Positions 803 through 20,248 of a stretch of 64,000 nucleotides of DNA are shown here, piece by piece. Origin of the DNA: an uncultured Latescibacterota bacterium (GTDB taxonomy: Bacteria > Latescibacterota > UBA2968); contig OX638329.1 in assembly GCA_951812755.1 (NCBI GenBank), forward strand, positions 6,439,107 to 6,503,106, in the 5' to 3' direction. Position 1 is the stretch's first letter. Each line of letters starts with the position of its first letter. Made by a program: the position numbers and the translations under genes. The notes under the pieces are model-generated. The model had not been told where the DNA came from. It did no database searches and saw only the letters and a program-made list of their open reading frames with translations.

Positions 803-1696
803 ATGGCAAATTCAGATTACAAAATTGGCGTGGTTGGCGTTGGTCGAATGGGTGCGAATATTGCGCGTCATCTCAATGATGAGGGGTTTTCGGTCGAGGC
901 GGTGTACGATATTCGCACAGAGGTCGCATCGGATCTTGCCAGCGAGTTGGGTTGTGAGGCACATACGGAACTCGCGGGTGTGACGGCTGCTGCTGATTAT
1001 ATCATTACAGTTGTGACAGACGACGCTGCGATGGGGGCTATTTATGCCGAATCTGGCGATAGTCTGCTGCAAGGTGCTCAGGGCAAGGTTTTTATCAATT
1101 GCGCGACGATTACGCCACAGATTCACGTGGATGTCGAGGGTCTTGCAGAGCAGGCGGGTGCAAGCAGTCTGGAAGGGTGCATGGCCAGCAGTATTACACA
1201 GGCGCGTGAAGGTACGCTCTATTTGATGTGCGGTGGTAAGCGCGCTGTTTTTGACCAGGCGAACCCGATTCTCGAATCTATGAGTACAAATTTGATCTAT
1301 ATCGGTACGGCAGGACAGGCCGCGCAGGTCAAGGCGCTCGTCAATATGGTTATGAATATCAATACCGCTGGTCTGGCAGAGGGCCTGGGGTTGGGTGCTG
1401 CGCTCGGCCTGGATTTGAATATGGTCATGGAGGTGTTTTCACAAACGGGGGCAAATTCTCGCGTGCTGGAGACCGATGGCGAAGATATGCTCATCCGCGA
1501 TCACGAATGTTATTTTTCCGCCGATCATGCGGCGAAAGATTCGGGGATTGCGCTTTCGCTCGCTCAGGACGCGGGTCTCAATCTTCCATTGGCAGAGGCG
1601 ACAAAAGCCCAATTTGAACTTTTGAAAGAGAAGGGCAAGGGCGATCTGGACAAATCGGGTGTTGCCGAGTTGACTTTCCCGGGGCGTGATGATTAA
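803..1696 (+). CDS. NAD(P)-dependent oxidoreductase, 3-hydroxyisobutyrate / 6-phosphogluconate dehydrogenase-like
   Basis: This 297-residue protein has the size of the beta-hydroxyacid dehydrogenase family. The N-terminal Rossmann motif GVVGVGRMG is at residues 9-17. The substrate-loop region (about 125-145, GCMASSITQAREGTL) matches the family position but departs from the usual PVSGG sequence, so the substrate cannot be assigned. The catalytic lysine is K177 (QVKALVNM), followed by the all-helical C-terminal domain. It should oxidise a short 3-hydroxy acid or reduce a semialdehyde in the cytoplasm. Only 3 bp separate it from the M20 peptidase at 1700, so the two are almost certainly co-transcribed and may act in one degradative route. 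The start has a GAGG motif seven bases upstream. Confidence 0.85.
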   Translation: MANSDYKIGVVGVGRMGANIARHLNDEGFSVEAVYDIRTEVASDLASELGCEAHTELAGVTAAADYIITVVTDDAAMGAIYAESGDSLLQGAQGKVFINCATITPQIHVDVEGLAEQAGASSLEGCMASSITQAREGTLYLMCGGKRAVFDQANPILESMSTNLIYIGTAGQAAQVKALVNMVMNINTAGLAEGLGLGAALGLDLNMVMEVFSQTGANSRVLETDGEDMLIRDHECYFSADHAAKDSGIALSLAQDAGLNLPLAEATKAQFELLKEKGKGDLDKSGVAELTFPGRDD

Positions 1697-1699
1697 ACC

Positions 1700-2884
1700 A
1701 TGCAGACACAAGATCTCATAGCGGCTATTGACCGGGAGTGGGTGGCGGAACGGACGCTGGAGTTGGTCGATATATACAGTGTTACTATGGACGAAGCCGA
1801 GGTATGCCGCGCGTATTGCGACATGATGCGCGGGATTGGTCTGGATGTGGATGTGCGGGAAGTCACGCCGGGGCGGAATAATCTCTACGCGCGTATCGCA
1901 GGGCAGGGAGATGGTCCCGCGCTTATGCTCAATGGCCATCTCGATACGATTCCCGTGGGGGACTGTCCGCCCGCTCGTCGCGAGGGCAATCGCGTGTACG
2001 GTCGAGGGTCAACCGATATGAAGGGGGGGATGGCCGCGGCGTTGGGCACGGTCAAGGCACTCATAGAGAGCGGCGTGGAATTGCAGGGTGATCTGTGGCT
2101 GACGGCAGTTGTGGGGCACGAGGAGGTCGAGGCGCAAAAGGACGGGCCCTGGGCGCTGATTGCCGATCGCAATAGTGGCCGGATTGGCGGAGATCGGATT
2201 TTGATTGTCGAGGGCCGCGACGCGCTGTGGGTGATGAGTATGGGGTCGATGGTTTTTACTATCACGCTCGAATCGGACGCTGGCGGCAAGCACACGCAGT
2301 ACGTGCCTTTTGCAGAGAATCCGATCCGTTTTGTGGGCGCACTTATCGAGCGGATCCACCAGTATCAACTCGAACTCGACGCTGGACCGGCACACGCTCT
2401 TGCCGGCGCAGAGCGGATTGATCTGGGTATTGTCACCGGGGGCGACTATTTTAATCGCACGCCTCTGTGTTGTACGCTGACCGGGACCCGGCGCTGGCTG
2501 CCAGGGCGCACCGCGCCACAGGTTTTGGCGGAGTTGGAAGATCTGGCGCGGCCATTTGCCGAGGCCGGAAAGTTGCGTCTGCAGGTTGAGATGGAGCACG
2601 AGCGCGAGCCTTTTGATACCCGTGCCGAGGATGCGGCCGTGCAAGCGGTTGCCCGGGCGCACACACAGGTGACGGGCCAGGATGCGGAACTGGTGGGGAT
2701 GCGGATTGTGGGGGATGCCAATTTATACGTGCATGGGACAGGGGTGCCGACTTTTTATTACGGTCCTTCCAATGAGACGGCACACGCAGATGTAGAGTGG
2801 GTAGAGGTGGATCGGTTGGAGCGGGCAGCGCAGGTGTACGCGTTGGCTGCGGCTGACTATTGTGGTCTTGTGGGGGAGGAATGA
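1700..2884 (+). CDS. M20 family zinc peptidase / deacylase (ArgE-DapE-CPG2 type)
   Basis: A 394-residue M20 metallohydrolase. Metal ligands visible: H80 and D82 in NGHLDTIP, D106 in GRGSTDMKGG, and the catalytic or bridging pair E141-E142 in GHEEVE. A final His lies in NETAHADVE near the C-terminus. The central dimerisation (lid) domain is present at about 195-310. Such enzymes hydrolyse N-acyl amino acids, small peptides or carbamoyl groups with two zinc ions. The exact substrate cannot be read from sequence. Second gene of a two-gene unit with the dehydrogenase at 803. A strong hairpin terminator follows at 2913-2945. Confidence 0.88.
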   Translation: MQTQDLIAAIDREWVAERTLELVDIYSVTMDEAEVCRAYCDMMRGIGLDVDVREVTPGRNNLYARIAGQGDGPALMLNGHLDTIPVGDCPPARREGNRVYGRGSTDMKGGMAAALGTVKALIESGVELQGDLWLTAVVGHEEVEAQKDGPWALIADRNSGRIGGDRILIVEGRDALWVMSMGSMVFTITLESDAGGKHTQYVPFAENPIRFVGALIERIHQYQLELDAGPAHALAGAERIDLGIVTGGDYFNRTPLCCTLTGTRRWLPGRTAPQVLAELEDLARPFAEAGKLRLQVEMEHEREPFDTRAEDAAVQAVARAHTQVTGQDAELVGMRIVGDANLYVHGTGVPTFYYGPSNETAHADVEWVEVDRLERAAQVYALAAADYCGLVGEE

Positions 2885-4804: not shown

Positions 4805-5044
4805 ATGGATCTTAAAGATTTGGACCGTATCCACAAGGAACAGGCAGAAAGACAAAAGTTCAAAAGTATTCTTCAACGTTTTGAAGAAGGGAACAATGTG
4901 AGGAATGGGTTTATTGTCATTGCCATTGTGATTGTCCTGGTCATTGTGATTTACGGTTTTAAAGAAATGAATTTTCTCTTTGAATCTATTCCGGGCGGTG
5001 ATCCGGTAGAACAAGTAACACCCCGGGGAACAGAGGGTGAATGA
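4805..5044 (+). CDS. Small single-pass membrane protein of unknown function
   Basis: 79 residues, preceded by an ideal AGGAGG ribosome-binding site at 4795. Residues 1-33 are charged and helical, 34-51 form one strongly hydrophobic Ile/Val segment (FIVIAIVIVLVIVIYGF), and the tail is short and polar. No family recognised. It lies just before the hybrid histidine kinase at 5183 and could be a membrane anchor or regulator for it, but this rests on position only. Confidence 0.7.
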   Translation: MDLKDLDRIHKEQAERQKFKSILQRFEEGNNVRNGFIVIAIVIVLVIVIYGFKEMNFLFESIPGGDPVEQVTPRGTEGE

Positions 5045-5081
5045 ATTGAGAATTAAGAATTGAGAATTAAGAATTGAGGAA
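5044..5081. repeat. Short AT-rich direct repeat (GAATTAAGAATTGA units)
   Basis: Two and a half copies of a 16-base unit, followed by GAACGGTGT. A similar run with the same AAGGAACGGT neighbour occurs inverted near 46530-46565, so this is a dispersed intergenic element. The rest of 5045-5182 holds no gene. Confidence 0.6.
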
Positions 5082-5182
5082 CGGTGTATGAAGGCGAGTG
5101 AGCAGTTCAATCGAGCATGACTGCGTAGCAGTTCATTAAGGGTCGGGAGCGAGGCAAAAAGTAGTAAAGCTGAAAGCTTACC

Positions 5183-8077
5183 ATGGCAAAACGCGATACA
5201 CATACGGTTGATTCTACTGGTGGATTTCAACAGATTCGGGATGCGTTAGACGCATTGCAGCGGAGTGAAGAGCGTCTAACACACGCGCTCGAAGCCGGTG
5301 GAATTGGTCTGTTTGATTGGGATATCCAAAACGATAGTGCTGTGTGTACAGACCGGTACTTTGAACTTTTTGGCTTTCCCCCACGAGATACAATGGTCTC
5401 TGAGGCCGAGTGGTTGGCGTGTGTTTATCCAGATGATCGCGATCGCGCGCAGAAGGAGGTCAGACAAGCTCTTGAAGGACGCGCTCCTTATGACACTGAA
5501 TACCGAATTGTACATGCCAATGGCGAGGTAAGATGGGTCAGCAGCAAAGCCAAAGTTTTTTTTGACGCAGGTGAGGAAGTGCCGGTTCGCATGATTGGGG
5601 CGGTGGCCGATATTACCCGACAAAAGCGGGCAGAAGGTGCGCTTGGCGAGCAAGTGGCTTTTCAGAACGCGCTTTTACAGGTCAGTCGCGCTGTGCAACA
5701 GATGACGCGGCCAGAGCATCTCGAGGTGGTTGTTCGCGTGTGTAGAGAGCAGTTGCTGGCTCTTGATGTATCAGTTGTCGCGATTGCGGTGCATCGATTG
5801 CTCGATCCCAAAACGCGTACTTTTGAAACGTACGAAGTGATGCCTTCGGGGCAGATCAATTGCATGGTGCGCGAGGTGCCGAATGTATATCGGATGTGGC
5901 AACAGCAGAAAACAATTTACCGCGAGAATCTCGTAGAAAATATGGGGGGGTTGTCACAGGTGGGATTCAAGGCCATAGCTGCGCGATTCGGGGTTGAGGT
6001 GCGGTGTATTCTCGATATTCCCCATGTGCGGGGCACGCTGGCTTTGATGAGTGATGAGGTTTCTGCTTTTTCAGAGGCCGAAGTTCTGTTTTTGGAAAGT
6101 ATTGCAGAACTGGTTTCGATGGGTATTACCCGTTTAGACGATCTCGAGCGCCTTGAAGCGCAGAACAAAGAACTTGAAAATGCCCGTATAGCAGCCGAAG
6201 CAGCCAATCAAGCAAAGAGCCAATTTTTGGCCAATATGAGCCATGAGATCCGCACGCCAATGAACGGCATTATGGGGATGATTGAGTTGTTGGGCAATAC
6301 CGAATTGACTGAGCGGCAAAAGGAATACGCCGATCTCGCTTATAATTCGGCAGATACGTTGCTCGTGTTGCTCAACGATATTCTCGACCTGTCCAAGGTA
6401 GAGGCAGGCAAGCTCGAATTGGAAAGCATTCCGTTCGCGTTGAGAGATACGCTTGGCGATACGTTGCAGACGCTGGCTGTTCGGGCGAGTGAGAAGGGGC
6501 TTGAGTTGACCTATCGGATTGCGCCAGAGGTTCCCGACGAACTGATAGGCGATCCCATTCGCCTGAGACAAGTCGTGGTCAATCTGGCGGGCAATGCCAT
6601 CAAGTTTACAGACCATGGGGGTGTGGATATCGATGTTGACCTGATAGAGGTGCGCGAGGAGGACACAAGACTGCGGTTTGAGGTGCGCGATACAGGTATC
6701 GGTATTCCATTACAGGTACAAAGACAGATATTCAGCGCGTTTGATCAGGCCGACAGTTCAACGACGCGGCAATATGGCGGCACGGGGCTTGGTTTGACCA
6801 TTTCTGCCCAATTGGTCGGATTGATGGGCGGGAAACTCGATGTAAAAAGTGAGCCGAACAAGGGCAGTGTTTTCTTTTTTCAAGCCAGTTTTTTGCGTCG
6901 CACCAGCGGTGTGTTGTACAGAGATGTTTTGCCAGATACATTGCACGGCATGCCCGTATTGGTCGTTGATGATAATAATACCAATCGGGTGATTTTTGAA
7001 GAGATGTTGTCCTGTCATGGCTTGAAACCCTCTCTGGCTGAGAATGGTCAGATAGCATTGGAAGAGTTGTTGCGCGCACAACAGGCGGGCAGCCCATATC
7101 CACTGGTTCTGCTCGACGCGGAAATGCCCGTTATGAACGGTTACGCGCTCGCAAGGCAGATTGCCGCTGACGCAACGCTGAAATACACGCGCGTGGTGGT
7201 TTTGACTTCTGCCGGCCGCCCGGATATGGCTTCTACCAGGGAAATGCTGGCCGGGCACTTGTCCAAACCCATCAAGCAATCCGATCTTTTTAATTTGATC
7301 GCTGGCATATTTGAGGAATCTGCGCCAGATGCTTTGGGAACGGGCGATATTATAACCGATAAGGCGCGGAAATCTCTGCGCATTTTATTGGCCGAAGACG
7401 GTCTGGTCAACCAGCGCGTTGCCATTGATATGTTGCACCAGCGCGGTCACACAGTCGTTGTGGCAAATAATGGTGTGGAGGCTCTGGAAGCACTTGACAA
7501 AGACGACACCTTTGATCTGGTGTTGATGGATGTACAAATGCCCGAAATGGATGGGCTTGAAGCTACCAAAGAAATTCGCGAGCGGGAAAAGGTATCGGGG
7601 GGTCATATTCGAATTGTTGCGATGACAGCCGATGTGATGAAGGGCGACCGCGAGCTTTGCATAGCGGCTGGCATGGATGGGTTTGTCGCCAAACCGCTTC
7701 GGTCTCGCTTCCTTTACGATGCGGTAGAATCGACCGATCCCGCCGTGCAACAGACGCTCAATTGGGAGGCATCATTGCAACATGTTGGTGGGGATGAGGC
7801 GCTTCTCGTGCGGTTAGCCGAGATGTTTTTAGAAACGAGGGACGATTTGATTGGCCTTCTTGACGACACAGAAACGCTTCGCCAGGGAGCGCGTGGATTG
7901 AGAGAAAACGCCGAATTGTTTTACGCGAATGACGTAAGAGAAGTTGCCGCGACAATTGAAGAGTTGGCAAAGGATGAAAATTGGTCAGGTGCTGAGCGCT
8001 TTGTGGCAGATTTAAGCGCGCATGTGGAATGCCTTGCAGCCGCACTCGCGGTGCAAAGAGATCTGGTTCACAAATAG
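5183..8077 (+). CDS. Hybrid sensor histidine kinase: PAS-GAF-HisKA-HATPase-REC-REC with degenerate Hpt
   Basis: 964 residues, cytoplasmic (no clear membrane segments). Order: PAS/PAC about 30-155, GAF-like 165-320, coiled linker, HisKA with H354 in MSHEIRTPMNG, HATPase about 450-580 (NLAGNAIKF, DTGIGIP, GGTGLGL), REC1 with D645 (LLDAEMP), REC2 with D783 (LMDVQMP) and a final helical domain at about 865-960. The last part matches the Hpt fold in length and pattern, but the phospho-accepting His of the AHxLKG motif is R904 (ARGLREN). Phosphate probably passes to the separate Hpt protein at 3816-4511. The STAS gene at 8091 follows after 13 bp. Confidence 0.93.
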   Translation: MAKRDTHTVDSTGGFQQIRDALDALQRSEERLTHALEAGGIGLFDWDIQNDSAVCTDRYFELFGFPPRDTMVSEAEWLACVYPDDRDRAQKEVRQALEGRAPYDTEYRIVHANGEVRWVSSKAKVFFDAGEEVPVRMIGAVADITRQKRAEGALGEQVAFQNALLQVSRAVQQMTRPEHLEVVVRVCREQLLALDVSVVAIAVHRLLDPKTRTFETYEVMPSGQINCMVREVPNVYRMWQQQKTIYRENLVENMGGLSQVGFKAIAARFGVEVRCILDIPHVRGTLALMSDEVSAFSEAEVLFLESIAELVSMGITRLDDLERLEAQNKELENARIAAEAANQAKSQFLANMSHEIRTPMNGIMGMIELLGNTELTERQKEYADLAYNSADTLLVLLNDILDLSKVEAGKLELESIPFALRDTLGDTLQTLAVRASEKGLELTYRIAPEVPDELIGDPIRLRQVVVNLAGNAIKFTDHGGVDIDVDLIEVREEDTRLRFEVRDTGIGIPLQVQRQIFSAFDQADSSTTRQYGGTGLGLTISAQLVGLMGGKLDVKSEPNKGSVFFFQASFLRRTSGVLYRDVLPDTLHGMPVLVVDDNNTNRVIFEEMLSCHGLKPSLAENGQIALEELLRAQQAGSPYPLVLLDAEMPVMNGYALARQIAADATLKYTRVVVLTSAGRPDMASTREMLAGHLSKPIKQSDLFNLIAGIFEESAPDALGTGDIITDKARKSLRILLAEDGLVNQRVAIDMLHQRGHTVVVANNGVEALEALDKDDTFDLVLMDVQMPEMDGLEATKEIREREKVSGGHIRIVAMTADVMKGDRELCIAAGMDGFVAKPLRSRFLYDAVESTDPAVQQTLNWEASLQHVGGDEALLVRLAEMFLETRDDLIGLLDDTETLRQGARGLRENAELFYANDVREVAATIEELAKDENWSGAERFVADLSAHVECLAAALAVQRDLVHK

Positions 8078-8489: not shown

Positions 8490-8566
8490 CGGGGCGTGGC
8501 TCAGCCCGGTAGAGCGCCTGCTTCGGGAGCAGGAGGCCGGAGGTTCAAATCCTCTCGCCCCGACCA
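8490..8566 (+). tRNA. tRNA-Pro (anticodon CGG)
   Basis: 77 bases including an encoded CCA. The acceptor stem CGGGGCG (8490-8496) pairs with CGCCCCG (8556-8562), followed by A and CCA. The anticodon arm CCTGC-TTCGGGA-GCAGG gives CGG at 8524-8526. The T arm has GGTTCAAATCC. C1-G72 is typical of bacterial tRNA-Pro. Confidence 0.95.
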
Positions 8567-10142: not shown

Positions 10143-10166
10143 AGGTATCTCCTTATGAGGAGTTGC

Positions 10167-10255
10167 TTTCGTGGATAATGTAGAAGGTTCAGCCCCATCA
10201 TCCTGTGCCATCAGTTTTTCATAGGTGATGGAGTTTTATGCTATTATCCACCAAA
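10167..10255 (-). mobile_element. Miniature inverted-repeat element, GTGGATAA family, copy 1
   Basis: 89 bp bounded by TTTCGTGGATAA and TTATCCACCAAA. The inside contains the family's shared segment ACCTATGAAAAACTGATGGC (reverse strand). Full copies are at 18821-18910 and 57350-57438, and a decayed one at 55026-55082. No transposase is encoded, so it must move in trans, if at all. Confidence 0.75.
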
Positions 10256-10372: not shown

Positions 10373-11257
10373 TCACGGGACAGAATAGGGCAATCGAATT
10401 TGATCAATGTCTGAGGGGGCTTCCTCAAGTTGCACATCAAATTTCAGGGACGGCTCAACACGGCGACTTGCGTTATGGATGCGGAACCCGATAGTCCAGT
10501 CTGCATCCATATACATCATCGCGGTTGTACTGCTACCAGGTTTCATCCTAAGCTCAAATATTGTTTTGGGTGCAGGGAGTCTATCTCCCCATTTTAGTTG
10601 TCCGTGTAGATTAAAAGATTGCAGGAACACAGTCCCGTTTTCTTTTATCACCTTGTAGTAGTCATAACGCCCCAAGAGATAGTAGAGAAGTTGATCCAAG
10701 TTGGCATACTCTCTCACCTCATTCATAAAGGCTACCAAGATCGGGATGTAATACATGGTGTGCTTGTCTGGCAAATCTCTCCAGAGCGTGCCAAGCTCTT
10801 TATGAAGTCGCAAATGCTCAAAGATCGGGACGACTGCATCCCAATACTCGACTGAACAGGGTGTCCCGTACCACTTTTTGCCGAAGTCATTCTGGTCGGA
10901 TAGGCGCGAATGTTTAACTGCGGTGTGTCTGTGTTTCGCACTTATTCCTATTTCACCTTCTTTTGTGTGCAGAATTATATCTCTTACGTCTCCTGCGACA
11001 CCCTTCCTGTCGTCTTGTAGCATTACAGACCTAGTATTATAGGGAAGGCGATCATCATTGGCATATAAAAACTCGACCGCACGAAAAGCAGCCCCATCAA
11101 TGCGATTGCGGTCGTATTGAGACAAAGCATTGTAAGACTCATGCGCTTTGACTAAGGCATTATTCTTTTCTAATGTGGCATCCAATATACCGGCGAATTT
11201 ATACGCTAAACCATATTCCCACGCTTTACCGCTTTGTGTCTGGTCAGAAGTTGGCAA
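10373..11257 (-). CDS. Probable HaeIII-family type II restriction endonuclease
   Basis: 294 residues. The N-terminal GKAWEYGLAYKFA and the block GDVRDIIL...EIGISAKHRHTAVKHSRLS...DFGKKWYG match the pattern I associate with the HaeIII restriction family. Candidate catalytic residues of a PD-(D/E)xK-type site are D90, D93, E102 and K108. It would cut unmethylated DNA at a specific site. It overlaps the 3' end of the adenine methyltransferase gene by 14 bp, giving a compact restriction-modification operon. The neighbour is an N6-adenine enzyme, so the target must contain adenine and cannot be GGCC, the HaeIII site. Family call is moderately sure. Confidence 0.65.
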   Translation of the reverse strand: MPTSDQTQSGKAWEYGLAYKFAGILDATLEKNNALVKAHESYNALSQYDRNRIDGAAFRAVEFLYANDDRLPYNTRSVMLQDDRKGVAGDVRDIILHTKEGEIGISAKHRHTAVKHSRLSDQNDFGKKWYGTPCSVEYWDAVVPIFEHLRLHKELGTLWRDLPDKHTMYYIPILVAFMNEVREYANLDQLLYYLLGRYDYYKVIKENGTVFLQSFNLHGQLKWGDRLPAPKTIFELRMKPGSSTTAMMYMDADWTIGFRIHNASRRVEPSLKFDVQLEEAPSDIDQIRLPYSVP

Positions 11258-12035
11258 TTAACACCTCCCGTGATTTTTTGTTCTTCGACATGCCATAAAT
11301 CCATTCAGGTTCTACAATCTTAAATCCATCATATAGCTTTCGGATTTGTGGGTGATCATTGTAGCTCAGTAGCCAACCGTTCCGACCTTTTAACTCGTTA
11401 TATAGATCTTCATGGTTAAACCCTTCATGCATATTTCCCTTATTGCCATATAGCCTTTCGCCGTTGGCATAGGGAGGGTCTAAATACAAAAAATCATTGG
11501 GATGGTTTCGTATGGTGTCTTTGTAATCCGCACAAGAGACATGCAAATTATCAGCCCTGAAATCCCTCAAACGGTTTATGGCACTTTCGTTAAAACGCGG
11601 ATGGTTTGGGGACATCCCACCAGAGAGAGTCGTGCCAGAAAAAGACGACCTGTTCAGGACAAAGAAAACCGCTGCCCGATCCATGTCGTTTCGCAAATTC
11701 ATAAACCGTTTTTGTAACCTGTAAAACTTACTCCGGGTTAAAGGGTGGTACGTTCTAACGCGCTCAGAAAGCAGAACAGGATTTGCTTGTGCGTGTCGCC
11801 AGAAATTTACAACAGGCGCAAAAGCATCTGCACCAAACACCTCAATGCCATCGGCCGCACAGGATATTTCAACACTTGCTCCACCCAAAAATGGGGAGAC
11901 AAGCGTCTTTATACGAGGGATAAAAGACCTTATCGTCTTAACCGCTCGCGTTTTGCCTCCGGGATAGCGAAGGACAGATGTTCGACTCTGTGGGAGACTT
12001 GGAGCCAATAAAGTCGGCTCAGTCATGCGCGTCAT
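11244..12035 (-). CDS. DNA adenine methyltransferase, D12 (Dam-like) class
   Basis: 263 residues. The AdoMet-binding motif RYPGGKTRAVK is at about 23-33 and the catalytic DPPY motif is in FLYLDPPYANG. Length fits the alpha class (Dam/DpnM-like) of N6-adenine methylases. It protects the site cut by the downstream endonuclease at 10373. The start at 12035 has AAGGAG six bases upstream. The 230 bp upstream hold four copies of a TCTCAxTxTGAAAT-like motif that may control the operon. A second D12 methylase lies at 16662. Confidence 0.9.
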   Translation of the reverse strand: MTRMTEPTLLAPSLPQSRTSVLRYPGGKTRAVKTIRSFIPRIKTLVSPFLGGASVEISCAADGIEVFGADAFAPVVNFWRHAQANPVLLSERVRTYHPLTRSKFYRLQKRFMNLRNDMDRAAVFFVLNRSSFSGTTLSGGMSPNHPRFNESAINRLRDFRADNLHVSCADYKDTIRNHPNDFLYLDPPYANGERLYGNKGNMHEGFNHEDLYNELKGRNGWLLSYNDHPQIRKLYDGFKIVEPEWIYGMSKNKKSREVLIANF

Positions 12036-12661: not shown

Positions 12662-13955
12662 TTCTGTAAAAAGGTAGCTCCGTGAAATAGGGGTCACAGA
12701 TTTTATTTTAAATCCGTCATGTCCAGATAGCGTCTGCCCGTGATCCACTCTTCAGACCACTCCATACACAACGCGCCGATGAGACGTTCACAAGCCTTTT
12801 GATTGGGGAAGATCTGCACCACATCAGCCCGTCTTTTGATCTCACGGTTGAGTCGTTCCAACAGGTTGGTTGTCCGGATGCGTCTGCGGTGCTTTTTGGG
12901 GAAGTGGAAGCAGGCCAGACAATGGATGATATCCTGGTCGATTTTGTCCATGACATTGGGCAGTATCTTTTCATAGGTGTCCATCATATCAGATAGACGG
13001 TGTTGTGCGGTGGCAAGATCGGGAGCGTTGAAGACATCTTTGAGTGCCTCGGCAACCTCGCGTTGGTACTTGGGCGGTGTAATGCCTTTGATATTTCTGT
13101 GAAAGTGGGTTTGACAATGCTGCCAAGAGGCTCCCTGGAAGTGTCGTTTGATGGCGTTTTGTAAGCCTTCGTGGTGGTCAGAGATGACGAGATGCACACC
13201 CTTTAACCCACGCTTTTTAAGGTCTTTAAACAAAGAGGTATACGTGGCTTCTGTCTCAGTGTGCGCCACGTCAAGTGACAGGATGTCTCGGTGTCCACTC
13301 TGTGCGATCCCAGAAACAATTAAGACGCCCTCAGATGCGACCTGACCCCTGGATCGGATGTGGAGATAGGTCGCATCAATGATCAGATAAGGGTAGGCCT
13401 GTTCAAGGGGTCGCTCGCGCCAGGCTTTGATATCTGCATCAAGGTCTTGACATAGATCAGATATGTGAGACTTTGAAAAGCTGGTACCACATAGCTGTTC
13501 TGTGATCTTCGTGACTTTGCGTGTGGAGACCCCTTGCAGATACGCTTCTTGAAGCGCAAGAATCAGGGCTTTTTCACTGCGTTGAAAGCGTGAGAATAAC
13601 TCACTACTAAATCGCCCTTCCCGATCTTGGGGTGCACTCAGTTCGATACGGCCTACGCGCGTCTTGAGTATCCGCGGCTTATATCCGTTACGATAGCCCG
13701 TACGCTGTGTCGTGCGTTGATAGGGCTCTGCTTGTAAAAACGACGTGATCTCGGCTTCCATAAACTGCTGAAGGAAGCGTGTCACGGCCTGATTGAGAAA
13801 ATCAGGGTCATTCAAAAGTGCAAATTGCTCTGGCGCGGTAATTTTTATATCTTTGGGGTAAGTCATCGTAGCCTCCAAGTTAGGGTTTATACTACTTGTC
13901 ACCCCTATTTTAAGATTTTTCTCGGAGCTACGGTGACTTTTTACATTTTACAGAA
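12662..13955 (-). mobile_element. IS256-family insertion sequence
   Basis: About 1.29 kb with imperfect terminal inverted repeats. The left end reads TTCTGTAAAA then GTAGCTCCG...ATAGGGGT. The right end, reverse-complemented, reads TTCTGTAAAA, an extra 14 bases, then GTAGCTCCG...ATAGGGGT. It contains one intact transposase gene. No 8-bp target duplication is evident, so the element may be old or its edges may differ slightly. Confidence 0.8.
12703..13866 (-). CDS. IS256-family transposase (Mutator-type)
   Basis: 387 residues from the ATG at 13866, which has GGAGG nine bases upstream. The DDE residues are visible: D in LIIDATYLHIR, D in VISDHHEGLQNAI, and E in TTNLLERLNREIKRR. The C(2)H-like block ASWQHCQTHFHRNI is typical of the family. 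It appears full length and may be active. It catalyses copy or cut-and-paste movement of its own element and may have helped assemble the island. Confidence 0.95.
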   Translation of the reverse strand: MTYPKDIKITAPEQFALLNDPDFLNQAVTRFLQQFMEAEITSFLQAEPYQRTTQRTGYRNGYKPRILKTRVGRIELSAPQDREGRFSSELFSRFQRSEKALILALQEAYLQGVSTRKVTKITEQLCGTSFSKSHISDLCQDLDADIKAWRERPLEQAYPYLIIDATYLHIRSRGQVASEGVLIVSGIAQSGHRDILSLDVAHTETEATYTSLFKDLKKRGLKGVHLVISDHHEGLQNAIKRHFQGASWQHCQTHFHRNIKGITPPKYQREVAEALKDVFNAPDLATAQHRLSDMMDTYEKILPNVMDKIDQDIIHCLACFHFPKKHRRRIRTTNLLERLNREIKRRADVVQIFPNQKACERLIGALCMEWSEEWITGRRYLDMTDLK

Positions 13956-13980
13956 ATATAAGGACGCTATCGCAATTTTT

Positions 13981-14016
13981 CGGCGATGGGTCAAGCTAGC
14001 GTTTGACCCATCGCCG
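13981..14016. terminator. Strong hairpin downstream of the IS element
   Basis: A perfect 14-bp stem CGGCGATGGGTCAA / TTGACCCATCGCCG with loop GCTAGCGT. There is no long T tract, so it may be a terminator or simply a structured spacer. Confidence 0.55.
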
Positions 14017-14060
14017 GGAATTTGGTAATATCGAGACAAGGAAAAAATTTCAATTGTTCA

Positions 14061-14103
14061 AACCCCCGCCTCGTAGTGCATTGTGTTCTCCGAGGCGGGG
14101 GTT
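14061..14103. promoter_or_regulatory. GC-rich leader hairpin before the HEPN-like gene
   Basis: AACCCCCGCCTCG pairs perfectly with CGAGGCGGGGGTT over a 17-base loop, ending 18 bases before the ATG at 14122. It stands out in AT-rich surroundings. It could insulate the gene from upstream transcription or act as an attenuator. Confidence 0.5.
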
Positions 14104-14121
14104 ACAAAGGAGAGTTGTGAA

Positions 14122-14763
14122 ATGAAAAGAGTAGGTAGAAAAATGACACAAAGGCAATTGAATATGTCCAGCTTACAAGCACGAGGGTTTTTAAGAAGTG
14201 CTCGTGGTCTTTACGATAATGCACAGGAAAGTAAATTCAAAGAAATTCCTGATGATAAACACTTTATTGTGCAAGGTGTTGACGGTATAACCTATTCTTG
14301 GGGAGATATGAATGCAATTCTTGTCAATATAGGATTCTCTTTAGAACTTATATTAAAACGTATCCTATATTACGACTGCGGAGAGATACGTGAAGAACAT
14401 TATGATCCTACCCACAAATTGAGTAAAATTTATGATCTGTTGTCTGACGAGATCAAAGAATACATAGATTCTGTTTTTTCAGAAACGTCTAAAAAGTATG
14501 GATATTTTCATCTTGTTGCAATGATGATTAAAGATACATCAGACATACCTGATAAACCAGAAGATGTAAGGCTGAATGGTTTAGATGATATACTCAAGTA
14601 TGTAGATGATGAAGATATGCTATACGGAAAACGGTATGAATGCTTTAATCTCGAAAAGAATAAGTGGTATTTTTTCATTGATAATTTAGAGTCTTTCTTT
14701 CTTTTTATGGAAAGACTTTTGTGGTTGCATAATAAAGCTGTGCATGATGAATCTGACGTTTGA
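14122..14763 (+). CDS. HEPN-like hypothetical protein
   Basis: 213 residues from the ATG at 14122, preceded by AAAGGAG. The middle, NIGFSLELILKRILYYDC followed by THKLSKIYDLLSDEIKEYI, has the helical layout of HEPN domains. The C-terminal HNKAVHDE resembles the HEPN catalytic end, but the usual Arg (RxxxxH) is His, so ribonuclease activity is doubtful. AT-rich and alone between hairpins. HEPN proteins are common in defence and toxin systems; the role here is inferred from family and location. Confidence 0.5.
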   Translation: MKRVGRKMTQRQLNMSSLQARGFLRSARGLYDNAQESKFKEIPDDKHFIVQGVDGITYSWGDMNAILVNIGFSLELILKRILYYDCGEIREEHYDPTHKLSKIYDLLSDEIKEYIDSVFSETSKKYGYFHLVAMMIKDTSDIPDKPEDVRLNGLDDILKYVDDEDMLYGKRYECFNLEKNKWYFFIDNLESFFLFMERLLWLHNKAVHDESDV

Positions 14764-14781
14764 TCTTGCCCTTACGAAATT

Positions 14782-14918
14782 GGAGAGGCAATGCAAAAGG
14801 CACGCCTTGTCAGAGACGCGCCTTTGATAGACTATCTCATGTAGTCTATGCGGATGGCTAAACAGATATTACAAACTCTGATAGCCAATAAAACAATGAG
14901 TATTCTCATTGCCTCTCC
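14782..14918. repeat. 12-bp inverted repeat enclosing 113 bp of non-coding DNA
   Basis: GGAGAGGCAATG (14782) and CATTGCCTCTCC (14907) bracket a stretch with further small palindromes and no gene. It could be a miniature element or a structured RNA. The rest of 14919-15170 holds a small stem (GTATATAAT / ATTATATAC near 15091) and no gene. Confidence 0.5.
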
Positions 14919-15170
14919 TTTCTCCCGTAGGGATTAGGAGTTGATAGAATACATCATAGCTATATGAAATCAGTGACTAATATAATCTGTCACTAATTTA
15001 TATGTTTTTACCCTACATTACAAGCAAAAGCCAGTAGGAACTAAACGCGTAAATTAAAAGAAAATGAACCCTGAGAAATGGTTACCAAAGTATATAATCC
15101 CCTTAAAACGGGAATTATATACTACGTTACAGAATAGTAGCGTAAGATATTGTAATATATAGATATATAG

Positions 15171-15205
15171 AAAAGGGCTGATTTGTGGCGAAATCAGCCC
15201 TTTTT
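15171..15205 (+). terminator. Rho-independent terminator
   Basis: Stem AAAAGGGCTGATTT / AAATCAGCCCTTTT with loop GTGGCG, followed by T residues. Confidence 0.85.
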
Positions 15206-15246
15206 GGGGTTGACAATGCCTGAGGTGGTTAGCTATATTGGGAATA

Positions 15247-15283
15247 GAGGAGGCCGAGATTGTGTTAGAATCTCGGCCTCCTC
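15247..15283. promoter_or_regulatory. Perfect 15-bp leader hairpin
   Basis: GAGGAGGCCGAGATT / AATCTCGGCCTCCTC with a 7-base loop, just upstream of the small gene and RM system 2. Its placement matches the hairpin at 14061, suggesting each island gene is insulated or attenuated by a leader structure. Confidence 0.55.
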
Positions 15284-15327
15284 CTAAGCATCAAAACACT
15301 GAACATGGCAAAAATATAAAAATTCAA

Positions 15328-15501
15328 ATGGAGAACAGGCACAGGCGTAAGAAGTTAAATTCGACACTGGAAGATTTGCCACGATATACCGGAGAAAAGA
15401 TAGGGTATAGATGTCCTCACTGTGCGTATCTGAAAGGATATGAAGACGCGATGAACGAAGTGGAAAAGCTTTCAAAGTCACTCAAAGAAAATCACGAGTA
15501 G
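15328..15501 (+). CDS. Small CxxC protein upstream of RM system 2
   Basis: 57 residues from the ATG at 15328. A TTG at 15238 would extend the frame through the 15247 hairpin, which is unlikely. No good ribosome-binding site is seen for either, so the start is uncertain. It is basic at the N-terminus (RHRRKK), has a single CPHC motif and ends in an acidic helix. It lies 31 bp before the endonuclease-like gene and could regulate the RM operon, but it does not look like a typical HTH controller protein. Confidence 0.4.
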   Translation: MENRHRRKKLNSTLEDLPRYTGEKIGYRCPHCAYLKGYEDAMNEVEKLSKSLKENHE

Positions 15502-15532
15502 TTAGGATTGTAGCCAATAAGAGGAAAGTTCT

Positions 15533-16669
15533 ATGCCTATATCTATCAAAGGGGTCATACGCAATATAGCGTATGACCCTTGCTTTCGCCCTGCACAGCT
15601 TCAGGAGTATCATATAAACGGTTTTGATATAAACGAAGTTTCTTCGAGTGGTTTAATTAACCTGGGGGATCCAGGAGACTGTTTGGCGTATTCAAAGTGG
15701 ATTACACCCAAACGGACGCGATCATATCCATTCACTCGGATTTACAACACGTATCATCTCAACACCAAAAAGGTCACAATTATTCCTATCATCAAAGATG
15801 AAGGGGCGAGTACAAATAACGACCGTATCAATTTTATTACCTTATCGTGGATGAACCTGTTAAACATCTATATCATTTTGGCGTGGTACGACGAAGCAGA
15901 GAGAAAGCCGGGCACGTTTGATCGGATTACTAACCAGACTTTTCATGCAGAAAGCGTGAGAGAGCGTTTGCGTCAGGTAAGCCAGTGTCCATTGAGTGCT
16001 TTACACTGGAATACTGAGCATTTTAACAGGGACTTTGAATCAACCTATCGCCTTGCTGTTGAGGCGTATGAGCAAATATCTTGGGATAATGATGTTCTAT
16101 TACACAGTTCGGAGGTTCACCTGAGAAGGCTCGACAGGTTTATGGAATATGGGGAATTTAGTCTCGATGCTTTTCAAGAACAAAGCCTTTCAAGTTCGGA
16201 AAAAGCTGCTCACAGAGAAACGCATACATCCCACTGGCATGAGAGGTTAAGTGAAGACACAGAGAAAGGGCAACTTTACATTACAAATTACTTAGGCGGG
16301 GAGTACCATTTAACAGCCGATGAGGTCTATTATGAGGATGGACGATGGGTGTTACAGGAATCAAAAAACAGTAGAGGAAAATTCCCGTCTGAGAATGACA
16401 TAAAATCTGGCTTGTTTGTGGGGATTCTTTATTCAAATATGGAGGAAGTTTCCATTTACGGGGAGACAGATGTCGAATTTATCACACGCTTGAAACTAAC
16501 GGGTAATCTAATCGGAGAATTGCACCTACCCCGTGATATGTCAAAAATAGTCGATTTTTGTTCCATTAATCGGCTAACCAAAACCCAACTGCAGACAATC
16601 GTCCTGCTTAACCAGGAAGCCATAAAAAACGAGAAGCTCGAAGTGTGGATAAAGGGTCAAGATGGATAA
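15533..16669 (+). CDS. Putative restriction endonuclease of RM system 2
   Basis: 378 residues, no family recognised. A candidate PD-(D/E)xK core lies late in the protein: acidic residues in LTADEVYYEDGRW, then VLQESKN with E276-x-K278. Its stop overlaps the start of the D12 adenine methyltransferase by 8 bp, the arrangement expected of a type II restriction operon. The nuclease call rests on that partner and the ExK motif. If correct it would be a poorly described endonuclease family. The start is an ATG with GAGGAAAG upstream. Confidence 0.5.
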   Translation: MPISIKGVIRNIAYDPCFRPAQLQEYHINGFDINEVSSSGLINLGDPGDCLAYSKWITPKRTRSYPFTRIYNTYHLNTKKVTIIPIIKDEGASTNNDRINFITLSWMNLLNIYIILAWYDEAERKPGTFDRITNQTFHAESVRERLRQVSQCPLSALHWNTEHFNRDFESTYRLAVEAYEQISWDNDVLLHSSEVHLRRLDRFMEYGEFSLDAFQEQSLSSSEKAAHRETHTSHWHERLSEDTEKGQLYITNYLGGEYHLTADEVYYEDGRWVLQESKNSRGKFPSENDIKSGLFVGILYSNMEEVSIYGETDVEFITRLKLTGNLIGELHLPRDMSKIVDFCSINRLTKTQLQTIVLLNQEAIKNEKLEVWIKGQDG

Positions 16670-17495
16670 GTTAGCAAGAAGCCCGTTAAGATACCCTGGT
16701 GGAAAATCTAAGGCGTTAAAACAAATTCTTCCACTTATCCCTCTAAACATCTCTGAGTTTCGAGAACCTTTTGTTGGGGGCGGGTCTGTGTTTTTGGCGA
16801 TCCGCAGTCTCTTAAAGGATCGCGTTAAATCCTATTGGATCAATGATCTCAATTATGACCTCTTTTGTTTTTGGGCACAGACGCAAGACAACGTTGAACG
16901 CCTTGTTAGCAGGCTGGCTGAGATGCACACAAAACACGACGACGGACGAGCGTTATTTGAAAGATTGACAAAGCAGAAGGATTTGTTGAATACGCACGAG
17001 GACATGCTTTCTGAATTTGAGCGGGCATCCCGATTTTTTGTTCTTAATCGCATTACGTTTTCTGGTCTTGTAGATTCCGGGGGGTACTCACAATCTGCCT
17101 TTGATACGCGCTGGACGGCTTCCTCAATTGATCGTGTCAAAAAAGTTTCGGAATATCTCGGCGGTGTCAAAATTACGTGTAAGGATTATTCAGATGTAAT
17201 TTTCAAAGATGGGGAAGGTGTCTTTCTGTTTCTCGACCCCCCATATTGGAAGACGACAGCATCGAGACTTTACGGAGTAAGAGGGTCATTGCATACTGCC
17301 TTTAACCATGAACAATTCGCTGAGAATATGAAGAAGTGCCGGCACAAATGGCTCATTACCTACGACGACTGCCCAGCAGTCAGGCATTTGTTTAAGTTTG
17401 CTGACATTCAAGCGTGGACACTGCAATATGGGATGAATAATTACGGAAAGACGATTGCGCCAAAAGGGGAAGAATTGTTTATTAAAAACTATTGA
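16662..17495 (+). CDS. DNA adenine methyltransferase, D12 class (RM system 2)
   Basis: 277 residues with AdoMet motif RYPGGKSKALK at about 9-19, a FREPFVGGGSVF block and the catalytic DPPYWK motif. It methylates adenine N6 in the target of the upstream endonuclease at 15533, with which it overlaps by 8 bp. It is related to but clearly diverged from the methylase at 11244, so the two systems probably have different targets. A run of Cys-poor, Phe-rich sequence fits the family. Confidence 0.9.
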   Translation: MDKLARSPLRYPGGKSKALKQILPLIPLNISEFREPFVGGGSVFLAIRSLLKDRVKSYWINDLNYDLFCFWAQTQDNVERLVSRLAEMHTKHDDGRALFERLTKQKDLLNTHEDMLSEFERASRFFVLNRITFSGLVDSGGYSQSAFDTRWTASSIDRVKKVSEYLGGVKITCKDYSDVIFKDGEGVFLFLDPPYWKTTASRLYGVRGSLHTAFNHEQFAENMKKCRHKWLITYDDCPAVRHLFKFADIQAWTLQYGMNNYGKTIAPKGEELFIKNY

Positions 17496-17657
17496 CTCCG
17501 GCTCTCTCACTCTGGCTTTATCAAAGGGGACGATATGTATAAACTCATAGATATATTAAGCCTGATGCTTCTGCCTCAAGGCGTCCAAGCGCAGAATTAA
17601 GACGGGCGTATTGAGTTGCTTTTTACACCAGGGATACACAGAATTAACCTGGACTTG

Positions 17658-17684
17658 ACCCGTTTCGGATGCTGTTGCCGAATT
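17658..17684. repeat. Left arm of a long-range inverted repeat (GATGCTGTTGCCGAATT)
   Basis: The segment ending CGGATGCTGTTGCCGAATT is repeated inverted at 19031-19058 with a one-base difference, and a third copy in direct orientation starts at 18913. Together they bracket the gene at 17909. The spacer 17496-17715 contains no gene. Confidence 0.7.
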
Positions 17685-17715
17685 GGTCGAGGTTTGTTTG
17701 AAGGAGACGTGACCA

Positions 17716-17886
17716 ATGGCTAAGACAAGAGATGCAAATCGAATCATAGATGATGTAACAGGGGATGATGAAGAATTGCAGCAGATGATTGCAACTGAAT
17801 AGCGGAATCTGTCCAAGAACGGGGTAACTCCATTATCAGACCACGATGCTCAGTACATTGAAGAGCGCCTGAAAGAAATGCTGTGA
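17716..17886 (+). pseudogene. Fragment resembling the start of an antitoxin gene
   Basis: An AAGGAG and ATG at 17716 open a 28-residue frame (MAKTRDANRIIDDVTGDDEEL) that looks like the N-terminus of HTH-type antitoxins, ending at a TAG at 17800. The frame continues after the TAG for 27 codons (LSDHDAQYIEERLKEML) to a TGA at 17884. It could be a remnant with a nonsense codon or two stitched fragments. Weak evidence. Confidence 0.3.
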
Positions 17887-17908
17887 ACAGCCTTTGTAAG
17901 GGCATATA

Positions 17909-18802
17909 ATGAGGAAAATGGGACCAGTACCAGTACCATCTACAATCACGAAGACTTACCCTCAGAGAGGACCACTACAGCAATTTAGATTTGCTACGGC
18001 AACAGCATTTCGCTGTTTCCGATGTGGAGCTACGAAAAAATCCAAGCTAATTACCATCTATCATAGTGATTGGACGAGACAGCTATGCAATGGTTGCTAT
18101 GGTCGTCTTCTCTCCCTGTACGAGATTAAGGCTGGTACAGATAGTACGGACAAGAGAGTGGAACGAATGGTCGTATTACTGCTCTCTTTAGCCCGTGTCA
18201 ATGATCGCCGCAATTCAGAGCAACGCTTGCTTGCCTCGGAGAGCCGTTCAAAACATCTATGCCCAGAGGCACTACGGTTTCTCGCAACAGCTGAATTCAT
18301 AGCATCACAGTTAGGCTCAAAACCAGAGCTTGAGTGGTCTCCTGCGATTGTCGGTCTCTGCAAGGCAGTTGAGGTAGAGGTTATTAATCGTCTCATCCTA
18401 CCTCTCGCTCAAAGAGTTGTCTCCGAAGATATCTCAAACGATAAAAAAGATAAGGATATAGGACGAGTAGCAGCGTTTTGTGCTGATCCGAAGCGGTATC
18501 CACTAGAATTGGGAGGTATCTCTCATTTCTTGCAAACGACGATTCACAGCCAACGACGACGAGAAAGTAGTGTCCTGATGGGTGCATTCTTACACCTTGC
18601 ATCTGATTGGGCTGGCTCTCAATGGATATTGGATCCAAATGGTATCTTCAAAGCCCTGTCAAAACTCAGAACAGATTTCAGGAATAAATCTGCACATATT
18701 GATGAAATGAGTGAAACACACTATCGTCAATGCAGGGAATTAGTCATGGGAACTGATGGTGTTCTTTGGAAACTCACACTATCAGTTGAAAGACATCAGT
18801 GA
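17909..18802 (+). CDS. Zinc-ribbon plus HEPN-type protein, putative RNase
   Basis: 297 residues. The N-terminal part has two CxxC knuckles (C36/C39 and C60/C63), a likely zinc ribbon. The C-terminal helical domain ends with FRNKSAHIDEM, where R258 and H263 form the Rx4H motif of HEPN ribonucleases. Proteins of this type often act in antiviral or toxin systems by cutting RNA. No obvious antitoxin is adjacent apart from the fragment at 17716. The gene is enclosed by inverted repeats at 17658 and 19031, so it may have moved as a cassette. Confidence 0.55.
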   Translation: MRKMGPVPVPSTITKTYPQRGPLQQFRFATATAFRCFRCGATKKSKLITIYHSDWTRQLCNGCYGRLLSLYEIKAGTDSTDKRVERMVVLLLSLARVNDRRNSEQRLLASESRSKHLCPEALRFLATAEFIASQLGSKPELEWSPAIVGLCKAVEVEVINRLILPLAQRVVSEDISNDKKDKDIGRVAAFCADPKRYPLELGGISHFLQTTIHSQRRRESSVLMGAFLHLASDWAGSQWILDPNGIFKALSKLRTDFRNKSAHIDEMSETHYRQCRELVMGTDGVLWKLTLSVERHQ

Positions 18803-18820
18803 TTAGTGGCCTTGACTCGT

Positions 18821-18910
18821 TTTAGTGGATAACAGCATAAATCACCCACCACCTATGAAAAACTGATGGCACAGGATAATTGGGATGAAACTACTACATT
18901 ATCCACTAAA
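18821..18910 (+). mobile_element. Miniature inverted-repeat element, GTGGATAA family, copy 2
   Basis: 90 bp with perfect 12-bp termini TTTAGTGGATAA and TTATCCACTAAA. This is the best-preserved copy. It abuts a second element at 18913. Confidence 0.8.
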
Positions 18911-18912
18911 GC

Positions 18913-19047
18913 GATGCTGTTGCCGAATTGGTCGAGAGGAAATCTGCGGTTGGAAAAACGGCTGTTTGTGGCCTGAATTCAGGTTCTGTAAGCCCTATGT
19001 TTAGTTGCATCGGAACAAAATAGAATTCAGAATTCGGCAACAGCATC
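18913..19047. mobile_element. Second miniature element with 17-bp terminal inverted repeats
   Basis: GATGCTGTTGCCGAATT at 18913-18929 and its exact reverse complement at 19031-19047 enclose 101 bp with no gene. Part of the inside (CTGTAAGxCCTATGTTTA) recurs inverted near 55110-55140. Confidence 0.65.
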
Positions 19048-19069
19048 CGAAACGGGGTAACTCCACTTT

Positions 19070-20248
19070 ATGCCAGGTTCGCGTCATCATTATATCCCTC
19101 GAATGTTGTTGAATGGATTTAGTCCATCAAATAATAAGAAAGTATGGTATTACTATAAAGATCGTGAACCGAGATTGGTTAGCACTAAAGATATAGGTGT
19201 CTCTAAGAATTTCTATCACGAACCTACAAGAGGTATAAATCAGGATGTTAGAATAAGTAGTGCAGAGCATTCTCAATTAGACTTAATACAAAAATTGAGA
19301 ACAGACCCAGACTTAAAATTTTCTCACAAAGATATATTTTACTTAATGATCTTGTTGGCAGTCAGAGGAGATGCTTTCAAGGATGAGATGAGTAAAGGTT
19401 TGAGAAGAGCATTCAAGAGACGTTCTGAATTACTGAAGTCTAATGAGATTAATGAGTTGAAGGTGGAGCTTAATGTAAGTCGTAGAGTCATTGAGTATTC
19501 TTATAAGTATTTTAATTGGCACTTTGGTCAGGCTTATGGAATAAGTTTTGACAAGTATCTTTATGATCTTGGTAGTAGATTAGTCTTCTTGAATAGTTAT
19601 GAGCTATCTAATTTAGATAAGGAGTTCTTAATTGCTTGCGAAGTTAAGGACTTTCAGCTATTTGCAATTTACTACTTTACTCTTTTCGATGCTACTTACA
19701 AAGAATATGACGATAAGTTACAAACAACAGAATTAGAAATTGATAAGTTTACTCATTTACAGATGATTGATTATTTTCAGTCTCATAATAGAAGTGTAAT
19801 TAAATCATTAATACCTGATGAGGATTGCTTATTTGACTATTATCAGCAAGATTATGGCAACAATCATTATCTTATACTAGGAGACTATATAACATCTATC
19901 ATTAAGGATGGTGAAATAACAAAACTTTCAAATCCCGCAGCACTTTACAATGCAGATGCTTTTCTACTTCCTTTGTCCTATAATCAACTTTTCTTCGGAA
20001 ATAGAGGAGGAATTGATACAGGTATTGAAAAGATAAATGAAGAGACTGCTCGAAATTCTAGCAAATTCTTTATCAGTCCTTATGATACTCCAGAGTGTAG
20101 AAAGTATCATAAGCTAATAGGTCAAAAGTCCGATACTTCTAGTGATTTCAAGTTCGATGATATGATACTAGGAAAATCAGAGTATAGCGGGACTTGTGAC
20201 AGGATTTACGATATACTACTGAAAATTTCCAAGCAAGTGCCAAAATGA
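19070..20248 (+). CDS. DUF4238 family protein
   Basis: 392 residues. The start SRHHYIPRMLLNGFS, then KVWYYYKD and KNFYHE, is the DUF4238 signature. The role of this family is not established. The rest is AT-rich and mostly helical, with no membrane segment. The gene is much poorer in G+C than the kinase operon at 20421, fitting horizontal transfer. It is the last gene of the island and is followed by a terminator at 20391. Confidence 0.8.
   Translation: MPGSRHHYIPRMLLNGFSPSNNKKVWYYYKDREPRLVSTKDIGVSKNFYHEPTRGINQDVRISSAEHSQLDLIQKLRTDPDLKFSHKDIFYLMILLAVRGDAFKDEMSKGLRRAFKRRSELLKSNEINELKVELNVSRRVIEYSYKYFNWHFGQAYGISFDKYLYDLGSRLVFLNSYELSNLDKEFLIACEVKDFQLFAIYYFTLFDATYKEYDDKLQTTELEIDKFTHLQMIDYFQSHNRSVIKSLIPDEDCLFDYYQQDYGNNHYLILGDYITSIIKDGEITKLSNPAALYNADAFLLPLSYNQLFFGNRGGIDTGIEKINEETARNSSKFFISPYDTPECRKYHKLIGQKSDTSSDFKFDDMILGKSEYSGTCDRIYDILLKISKQVPK

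Follow-up and report, generated by a model that had tools for sequence, protein, structure and literature searches.

What kind of nuclease is encoded beside the D12 methylase at 15533-17495, and which DNA sequence would the pair act on? The window, that is, the whole stretch of 64,000 nucleotides analyzed here from the genome of an uncultured Latescibacterota bacterium, contains an ORF of 378 aa followed by a D12 methylase ORF of 277 aa, with the overlap of 8 bp that the original prediction had described. The features of this pair are the following.

15533..16669, plus strand: predicted type II restriction endonuclease, SuaI-type (PDLC03572), 378 aa, from a PADLOC match and the catalytic residues D263/E276/K278
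16662..17495, plus strand: predicted N4-cytosine methyltransferase of the alpha class and M.CbeI type, with GGCC as target; 277 aa with a DPPY motif, from Pfam, PDB and PADLOC
16662..16669, plus strand: overlap of 8 bp between the nuclease 3′ end and the methylase 5′ end, from the ORF coordinates

The 378-aa protein had at first been considered to belong to no recognisable family. A described family does exist, given that the PADLOC type II restriction endonuclease model PDLC03572 matches residues 6-365 (E 7.4e-55, profile positions 9-357 of 371). No Pfam or NCBIfam model matches the protein, a PDB sequence search retrieved no related solved structure, and nothing useful came from tblastn of the nuclease against plasmids and phages, from a search of viral contigs or from a genome scan with the nuclease as a single query sequence. 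Membership of the HaeIII family (PF09556) was rejected, as there is no Pfam RE_HaeIII match at E up to 1, and alignment with a Nostoc member of that family (L011) gave nothing meaningful. Among 14 control genomes, PDLC03572 found a match only in Sulfolobus acidocaldarius, where SuaI/M.SuaI, a system of GGCC and m4C, is apparently the sole R-M system, according to excerpts of PMC5809426. By elimination, we take the S. acidocaldarius match to be SuaI itself; the link from the window nuclease to SuaI runs via the shared model, the S. acidocaldarius match having only been tallied as a control.

The E276-x-K278 core lies where the original prediction had placed it, and all 73 aligned sequences share these two residues as well as D263 upstream (the window, L003, L004 and 70 of the 80 loci described below; the remaining ten, which had an inner stop, lacked a usable start or were of odd length, were excluded). 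An AlphaFold2 model of the nuclease computed from 71 sequences has a mean pLDDT of 94.6, compared with 65, and weak structural matches, for an earlier model from 5 sequences. In the 71-sequence model, residues 244-301 form a strand-strand-strand-helix unit, with D263 on the second strand and E276-S-K278 on the third, an arrangement that is the usual layout of PD-(D/E)XK nucleases. A second structural aligner, applied to residues 233-378, gave modest matches (best Z 6.4, rmsd 2.9, 102 residues) to proteins that we take to be mostly PD-(D/E)XK nucleases, namely the XisH-like 2inb, the repair endonuclease 2vld, McrBC, Can2/Card1 and BamHI. BsmI could be aligned over residues 15-378 (Z 4.4, rmsd 5.4, 251 residues), and Foldseek with the nuclease models found no match at E <=0.001, those of the 71-sequence model all having E >0.1 and mixing nucleases with unrelated proteins. 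The predicted fold thus appears to hold a nuclease site, with D263, E276 and K278 on core strands, and the motif and topology of the model carry the PD-(D/E)XK assignment more than any strong structural match does.

A profile built from 5 aligned members was used to search 84,980 species genomes and returned 357 relatives, the best 80 of which were kept as L013-L092. These best 80 come from Poribacteria, Chloroflexota, Cyanobacteria, Bacteroidetes and others, and include one archaeal genome, a Methanothermococcus (L037). The nuclease gene recurs in these genomes together with a methylase: an alpha-class D12 methylase lies directly downstream on the same strand in 78 of the 80 loci, a beta-class methylase lies upstream of the nuclease in L079, and L069 is ended by a contig edge. 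Among L013-L030, a methylase start could be assigned at 17 loci, and the computed overlap is again 8 bp at 12 of them. A wider set of 386 genomes yielded PDLC03572 matches in 8, counting the own genome; two of these matches are weak (E 5.5e-5 and 2.9e-4), and a third is no more than a short remnant. The loci L008-L010 are weak or fragmentary matches, and L006 is truncated close to the edge of its contig. The nuclease has a beta-class-type partner (Pfam N6_N4_Mtase) in L003 and L004 and an alpha-class partner in L005, so that the partner of this nuclease family can be of either methylase class. The nearly full-length PDLC03572 match, the invariant D-ExK and the conserved pairing with a methylase all support the type II nuclease reading put forward in the original prediction. 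Neither of the two refuting results named there, homologues free of any methylase and a predicted fold lacking a nuclease site, turned up when sought. Two loci have an unusual gene content: L007 holds a remnant of the system (1098-1731, minus strand), with a 77-aa nuclease start beside the end of an alpha-class methylase, and L080, from a Pyrinomonadaceae genome, has two tandem SuaI-type nuclease genes followed by one methylase gene (4900-7059).

The 277-aa methylase matches Pfam MethyltransfD12 (E 3.4e-41) and PADLOC PDLC03247 (E 2.2e-114), and its motif is DPPY, not SPPY. Its closest solved relative is M.CbeI (PDB 7m6b, E 2.3e-94), to which 149 of 262 aligned residues are identical (57%). 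M.CbeI is an alpha-class N4-cytosine methylase according to excerpts of PMC8616854, and the parts of PMC3425538 at hand describe it as making m4C in GGCC, as having a DPPY motif and as being 57% identical to DmtB, another GGCC m4C enzyme. Because of this relative, a plain adenine methylase was dropped as a reading of 16662-17495; as far as sequence kinship can tell, a cytosine-N4 enzyme is the likeliest identity of the protein.

The same target emerges from the DNA around the relatives. In the flanks of the R-M genes at the 80 loci, we counted 293 GGCC sites for 2188.3 expected from trinucleotides, a ratio of 0.134 that puts GGCC last among 16 palindromic tetramers, CTAG being next at 0.583. 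The ratio is 0.24 in Poribacteria, 0.21 in Cyanobacteria, 0.064 in Chloroflexota and 0.126 in the others, while 20 control pieces from genomes without the nuclease gene (one without countable bases) gave 0.961. The median ratio is 0.10 for 74 loci and 0.83 for 19 control pieces, with a Mann-Whitney p of 8e-11 that is too small because the loci are related, the effect nonetheless being present in each group. GGCC is the most avoided tetramer in 40 of the 80 loci and ranks first to third in 71. The R-M genes themselves are poor in GGCC, with 10 sites in 77,996 bases in relatives (40 loci) and none for 4.1 expected in those of the window. Further GGCC systems in the genomes of the relatives could add to the avoidance; HaeIII-family genes were sought in 54 other genomes with a SuaI-type gene, one of which (G254) has it as a truncated copy, and none was found. 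A specificity can be predicted in this simple way without experiment, from a roughly sevenfold avoidance of one tetramer in family-flanking DNA in every group examined, and an unannotated nuclease gains a firm and testable predicted specificity.

We consider it very probable that the pair constitutes a GGCC/m4C type II R-M system, made of nuclease and methylase, that was acquired by horizontal transfer. With a nuclease of SuaI type and an N4-cytosine methylase of CbeI type, it most likely represents a known type of bacterial immune system. In this system, the methylase would set a methyl group on N4 of a cytosine in GGCC and so protect the host, and the 378-aa nuclease, a putative PD-(D/E)XK enzyme with a separate N-terminal part, would cut GGCC sites that lack the m4C mark. 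We infer expression of both genes from one transcript, the overlapping genes probably being co-transcribed with the nuclease first.

As for the origin of the pair, no copy of the nuclease was found in 63 other genomes of the phylum, and the 46 nearest other genomes offer no methylase match better than 33% identity. In midpoint-rooted trees, the nuclease branches within the Poribacteria sequences (support 0.975) and the methylase next to them (support 1.0). The 16S of the own genome shares 78% identity with those of three Poribacteria genomes and 79-80% with Bacillus or Tsukamurella, indicating that the genome is not specially close to Poribacteria. Poribacteria were accordingly rejected as the phylum of the window itself, the more so as the 64 genomes of its phylum contain the gene only once, whereas Poribacteria genomes carrying it are available. 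Both the absence elsewhere in the phylum and the grouping with Poribacteria despite the 16S values were counted for horizontal transfer. The own genome has a GGCC ratio of 0.62 over 260 kb, compared with 0.80 over 100 kb of one same-genus genome, and ten pieces from the same genus that lack the gene, one of them having no countable bases, hold 566 sites for 829 expected, or 0.68. This avoidance hardly goes beyond that of the genus and thus gives no sign of long exposure; it fits a recent arrival, which is what we predict for the SuaI-type system, or a weak enzyme. Another tetramer, CTAG, is found only 20 times in 260 kb of the own genome (ratio 0.08), and is also very rare in most same-genus pieces.

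The R-M genes have a GC content of 0.43, against 0.48 for the window, and lie in a mostly low-GC stretch from about 8 to 20.5 kb, interrupted at 13-14 kb by a transposase-like ORF at 0.485. The same stretch holds a second predicted R-M pair, and its landmarks are listed here.

8490-8566: tRNA-Pro gene near the start of the low-GC stretch
10373..11257, minus strand: HaeIII-family restriction endonuclease, 294 aa, TTG start as listed, from Pfam RE_HaeIII
11244..12035, minus strand: second D12 methyltransferase, 263 aa, M.CbeI-like, from Pfam and PDB 7m6b
12703..13902, minus strand: transposase-like ORF between both R-M pairs, presumably of IS256 type, from the ORF list

A copy of the end of the tRNA-Pro gene was sought on the far side of the island, up to 24 kb, and none was present at <=7 mismatches in 25 bases. 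Several smaller features were recorded in and around this stretch. A 67-nt inverted repeat (10165-10231 and 18846-18912, 90% complementary) brackets 8.6 kb with both R-M pairs; each of its arms resembles the start of a small gene, and it may be a trace of a past rearrangement. One short sequence is repeated, in direct and inverted orientation, at 17645-17691, 18913-18936 and 19031-19070, perhaps as remains of a duplicated gene. The gene at 17909-18802 has a weak DUF7685 match below the cut-off (E 0.0015), the gene at 19070-20248 belongs to DUF4238 (E 1.2e-11), and nothing in Pfam, NCBIfam, PADLOC or PHROGs matches the 226-aa ORF at 14083-14763 within the limits applied.

The second pair was found on searching the own genome for HaeIII-family nucleases, the match being at 10373-11257 on the minus strand. 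Pfam RE_HaeIII (PF09556) covers this ORF with E 1.9e-72 over profile positions 1-295 of 298, and among 47 related genomes the own one alone gave a match to the family. The ORF overlaps by 14 bp the second methylase, which matches Pfam D12 (E 5.6e-30), has 7m6b (M.CbeI) as its best PDB match (E 4.3e-34) and is 37% identical to the other methylase of the window. According to excerpts of PMC6791906, GGCC is regarded as the target of a HaeIII-family enzyme, whose partner there is an m5C methylase; the pair at 10373-12035 is for this reason predicted to act on GGCC. The window would therefore have two unrelated nucleases of one predicted target at a distance of about 3.5 kb, which appears to be an uncommon neighbourhood, and such neighbouring same-target pairs are a natural case for the idea of mutual relief or exclusion between R-M systems of the same specificity. 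When two systems share a target, either can go without killing the cell, as stated in excerpts of PMC3874152, and it follows that loss or change of either system here need not leave the genome exposed.

Such a neighbour opens an alternative in which the GGCC methylase works and the nuclease is weakened or inactive, owing to relaxed selection beside the HaeIII-type system, leaving in effect a spare methylase. Two residues suggest that the window nuclease may be weakened or altered: S292 and V296 stand in place of a D and a K, respectively, each present in 72 of 73 sequences, and both positions sit in the helix after the catalytic strand. The own-genome GGCC avoidance, not clearly beyond that of the genus, points the same way. 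Against this, the frame is intact, the three catalytic residues are kept, and 292 and 296 are the only departures among 55 highly conserved columns; two or more departures occur in 14 of 73 sequences, the window included. Two departures being unexceptional, S292 and V296 are a lead and not a finding of decay, and we regard a decayed nuclease as unlikely. To a wider scheme for the whole island we give comparably little credence: the methylation of the first arrival would have let the second system establish, neither would now maintain itself by killing cells that lose it, the SuaI-type nuclease would be free to weaken or change, and a GGCC hairpin in its leader would tie expression to the shared mark.

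Upstream of the active-system candidate that we prefer, a GGCC/m4C system with both enzymes, the leader contains three features, of which the hairpin and the small CxxC gene had both been noted in the original prediction as possible regulators.

15210..15239, plus strand: promoter-like TTGACA-N18-TATATT, 11/12 consensus, from a consensus match only
15247..15283, plus strand: leader hairpin, an inverted repeat with perfect 15-bp arms at 15247-15261 and 15269-15283 and GGCC at 15252 and 15275
15328..15501, plus strand: small CxxC ORF, 57 aa from an in-frame ATG, probably outside the R-M system, from a PHROG match

The hairpin is real as a structure, being a perfect inverted repeat, and the 91-nt RNA that contains it folds with -30.1 kcal/mol (z -5.6), a value that 0 of 200 shuffles equalled. 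It was rejected as a terminator, as a T run is absent on either side, and as a repeat element, as the exact hairpin occurs once in the genome. The CxxC ORF is present as well, spanning 15238-15501 from the listed TTG; ATG 15328 is the likelier start, given that a weak match to PHROG 3941, a family of unknown function (E 6.5e-6), covers residues 32-81 only. The proposal that it regulates the system finds no support: tblastn at E 1e-4 gave no match in 85 related loci, only the own genome among 47 has the ORF, and no transcription-factor family matches it at the cut-off. It is not conserved with the R-M system and is probably not part of it.

The two hairpin GGCC sites could act as a methylation-sensitive switch, such that methylation, or binding of the nuclease or methylase, alters transcription of the operon, a mechanism compatible with the GGCC/m4C system proposed above. 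From 13787 to 18807 there is no other GGCC site, against an expectation of 10.2, and the hairpin begins a few bases past the promoter-like site; control through methylation of the own site is reported for CfrBI and LlaDII, to judge from titles cited in PMC3874152. However, a hairpin doubles any site that it contains, so that the two sites amount to one event, and one spotted post hoc; in addition, a GGCC-bearing inverted repeat of at least 10 bp was sought up to 500 bp upstream (188 bp in L040) in 40 of the 80 loci, and none was found. Promoter-like sites in the scanned region number two, fewer than in shuffled sequence (mean 7.1). We hold a switch to be improbable. Least probable is a type II R-M system whose site has drifted from GGCC, for example to a longer or flanked one, as the two changed near-invariant positions and a GGCC avoidance at about genus level would allow, since the methylase is as close to M.CbeI, nearly full length, as M.CbeI is to DmtB, both of them GGCC enzymes in the excerpted text of PMC3425538.

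The GGCC/m4C system thus retained can be compared with four known ones. It resembles SuaI of Sulfolobus acidocaldarius in that its nuclease matches PDLC03572 and in its predicted GGCC site and m4C mark, but M.SuaI is a beta-class enzyme, according to excerpts of PMC3425538, whereas the window methylase is alpha-class; L003 and L004, in which a SuaI-type nuclease is paired with a beta-class-type methylase, may be set beside it. With CbeI/M.CbeI of Caldicellulosiruptor bescii (GG/CC, m4C), the window pair shares the DPPY methylase, 57% identical over 262 residues, and a nuclease gene adjoining the methylase gene, apparently upstream in the source extracts. In contrast, the title of the CbeI paper, as cited in the excerpts of PMC3425538, describes that enzyme as HaeIII-like, while the window nuclease has no Pfam RE_HaeIII match, and a 45-bp gap is given between the two CbeI/M.CbeI genes in the extracts, in place of the 8-bp overlap of the window. 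The Nostoc plasmid pair of L011, a HaeIII-family nuclease with a D12 methylase, has a methylase of the same group (50% identical), the same gene order and an 8-bp overlap, but its nuclease has no sequence relation to the SuaI-type one; it has its nuclease family in common with the second pair of the window at 10373-12035, in which the methylase gene comes first. Two methylase classes thus occur with one nuclease family, and two nuclease families with one methylase class, all with GGCC as the predicted target. Finally, M.Ssp6803II of Synechocystis (GG-m4C-C) makes the GGCC m4C mark predicted for the window methylase, which is tied in the excerpts of PMC6560206 to regulation, replication and repair, whereas the window methylase has an adjoining nuclease gene.
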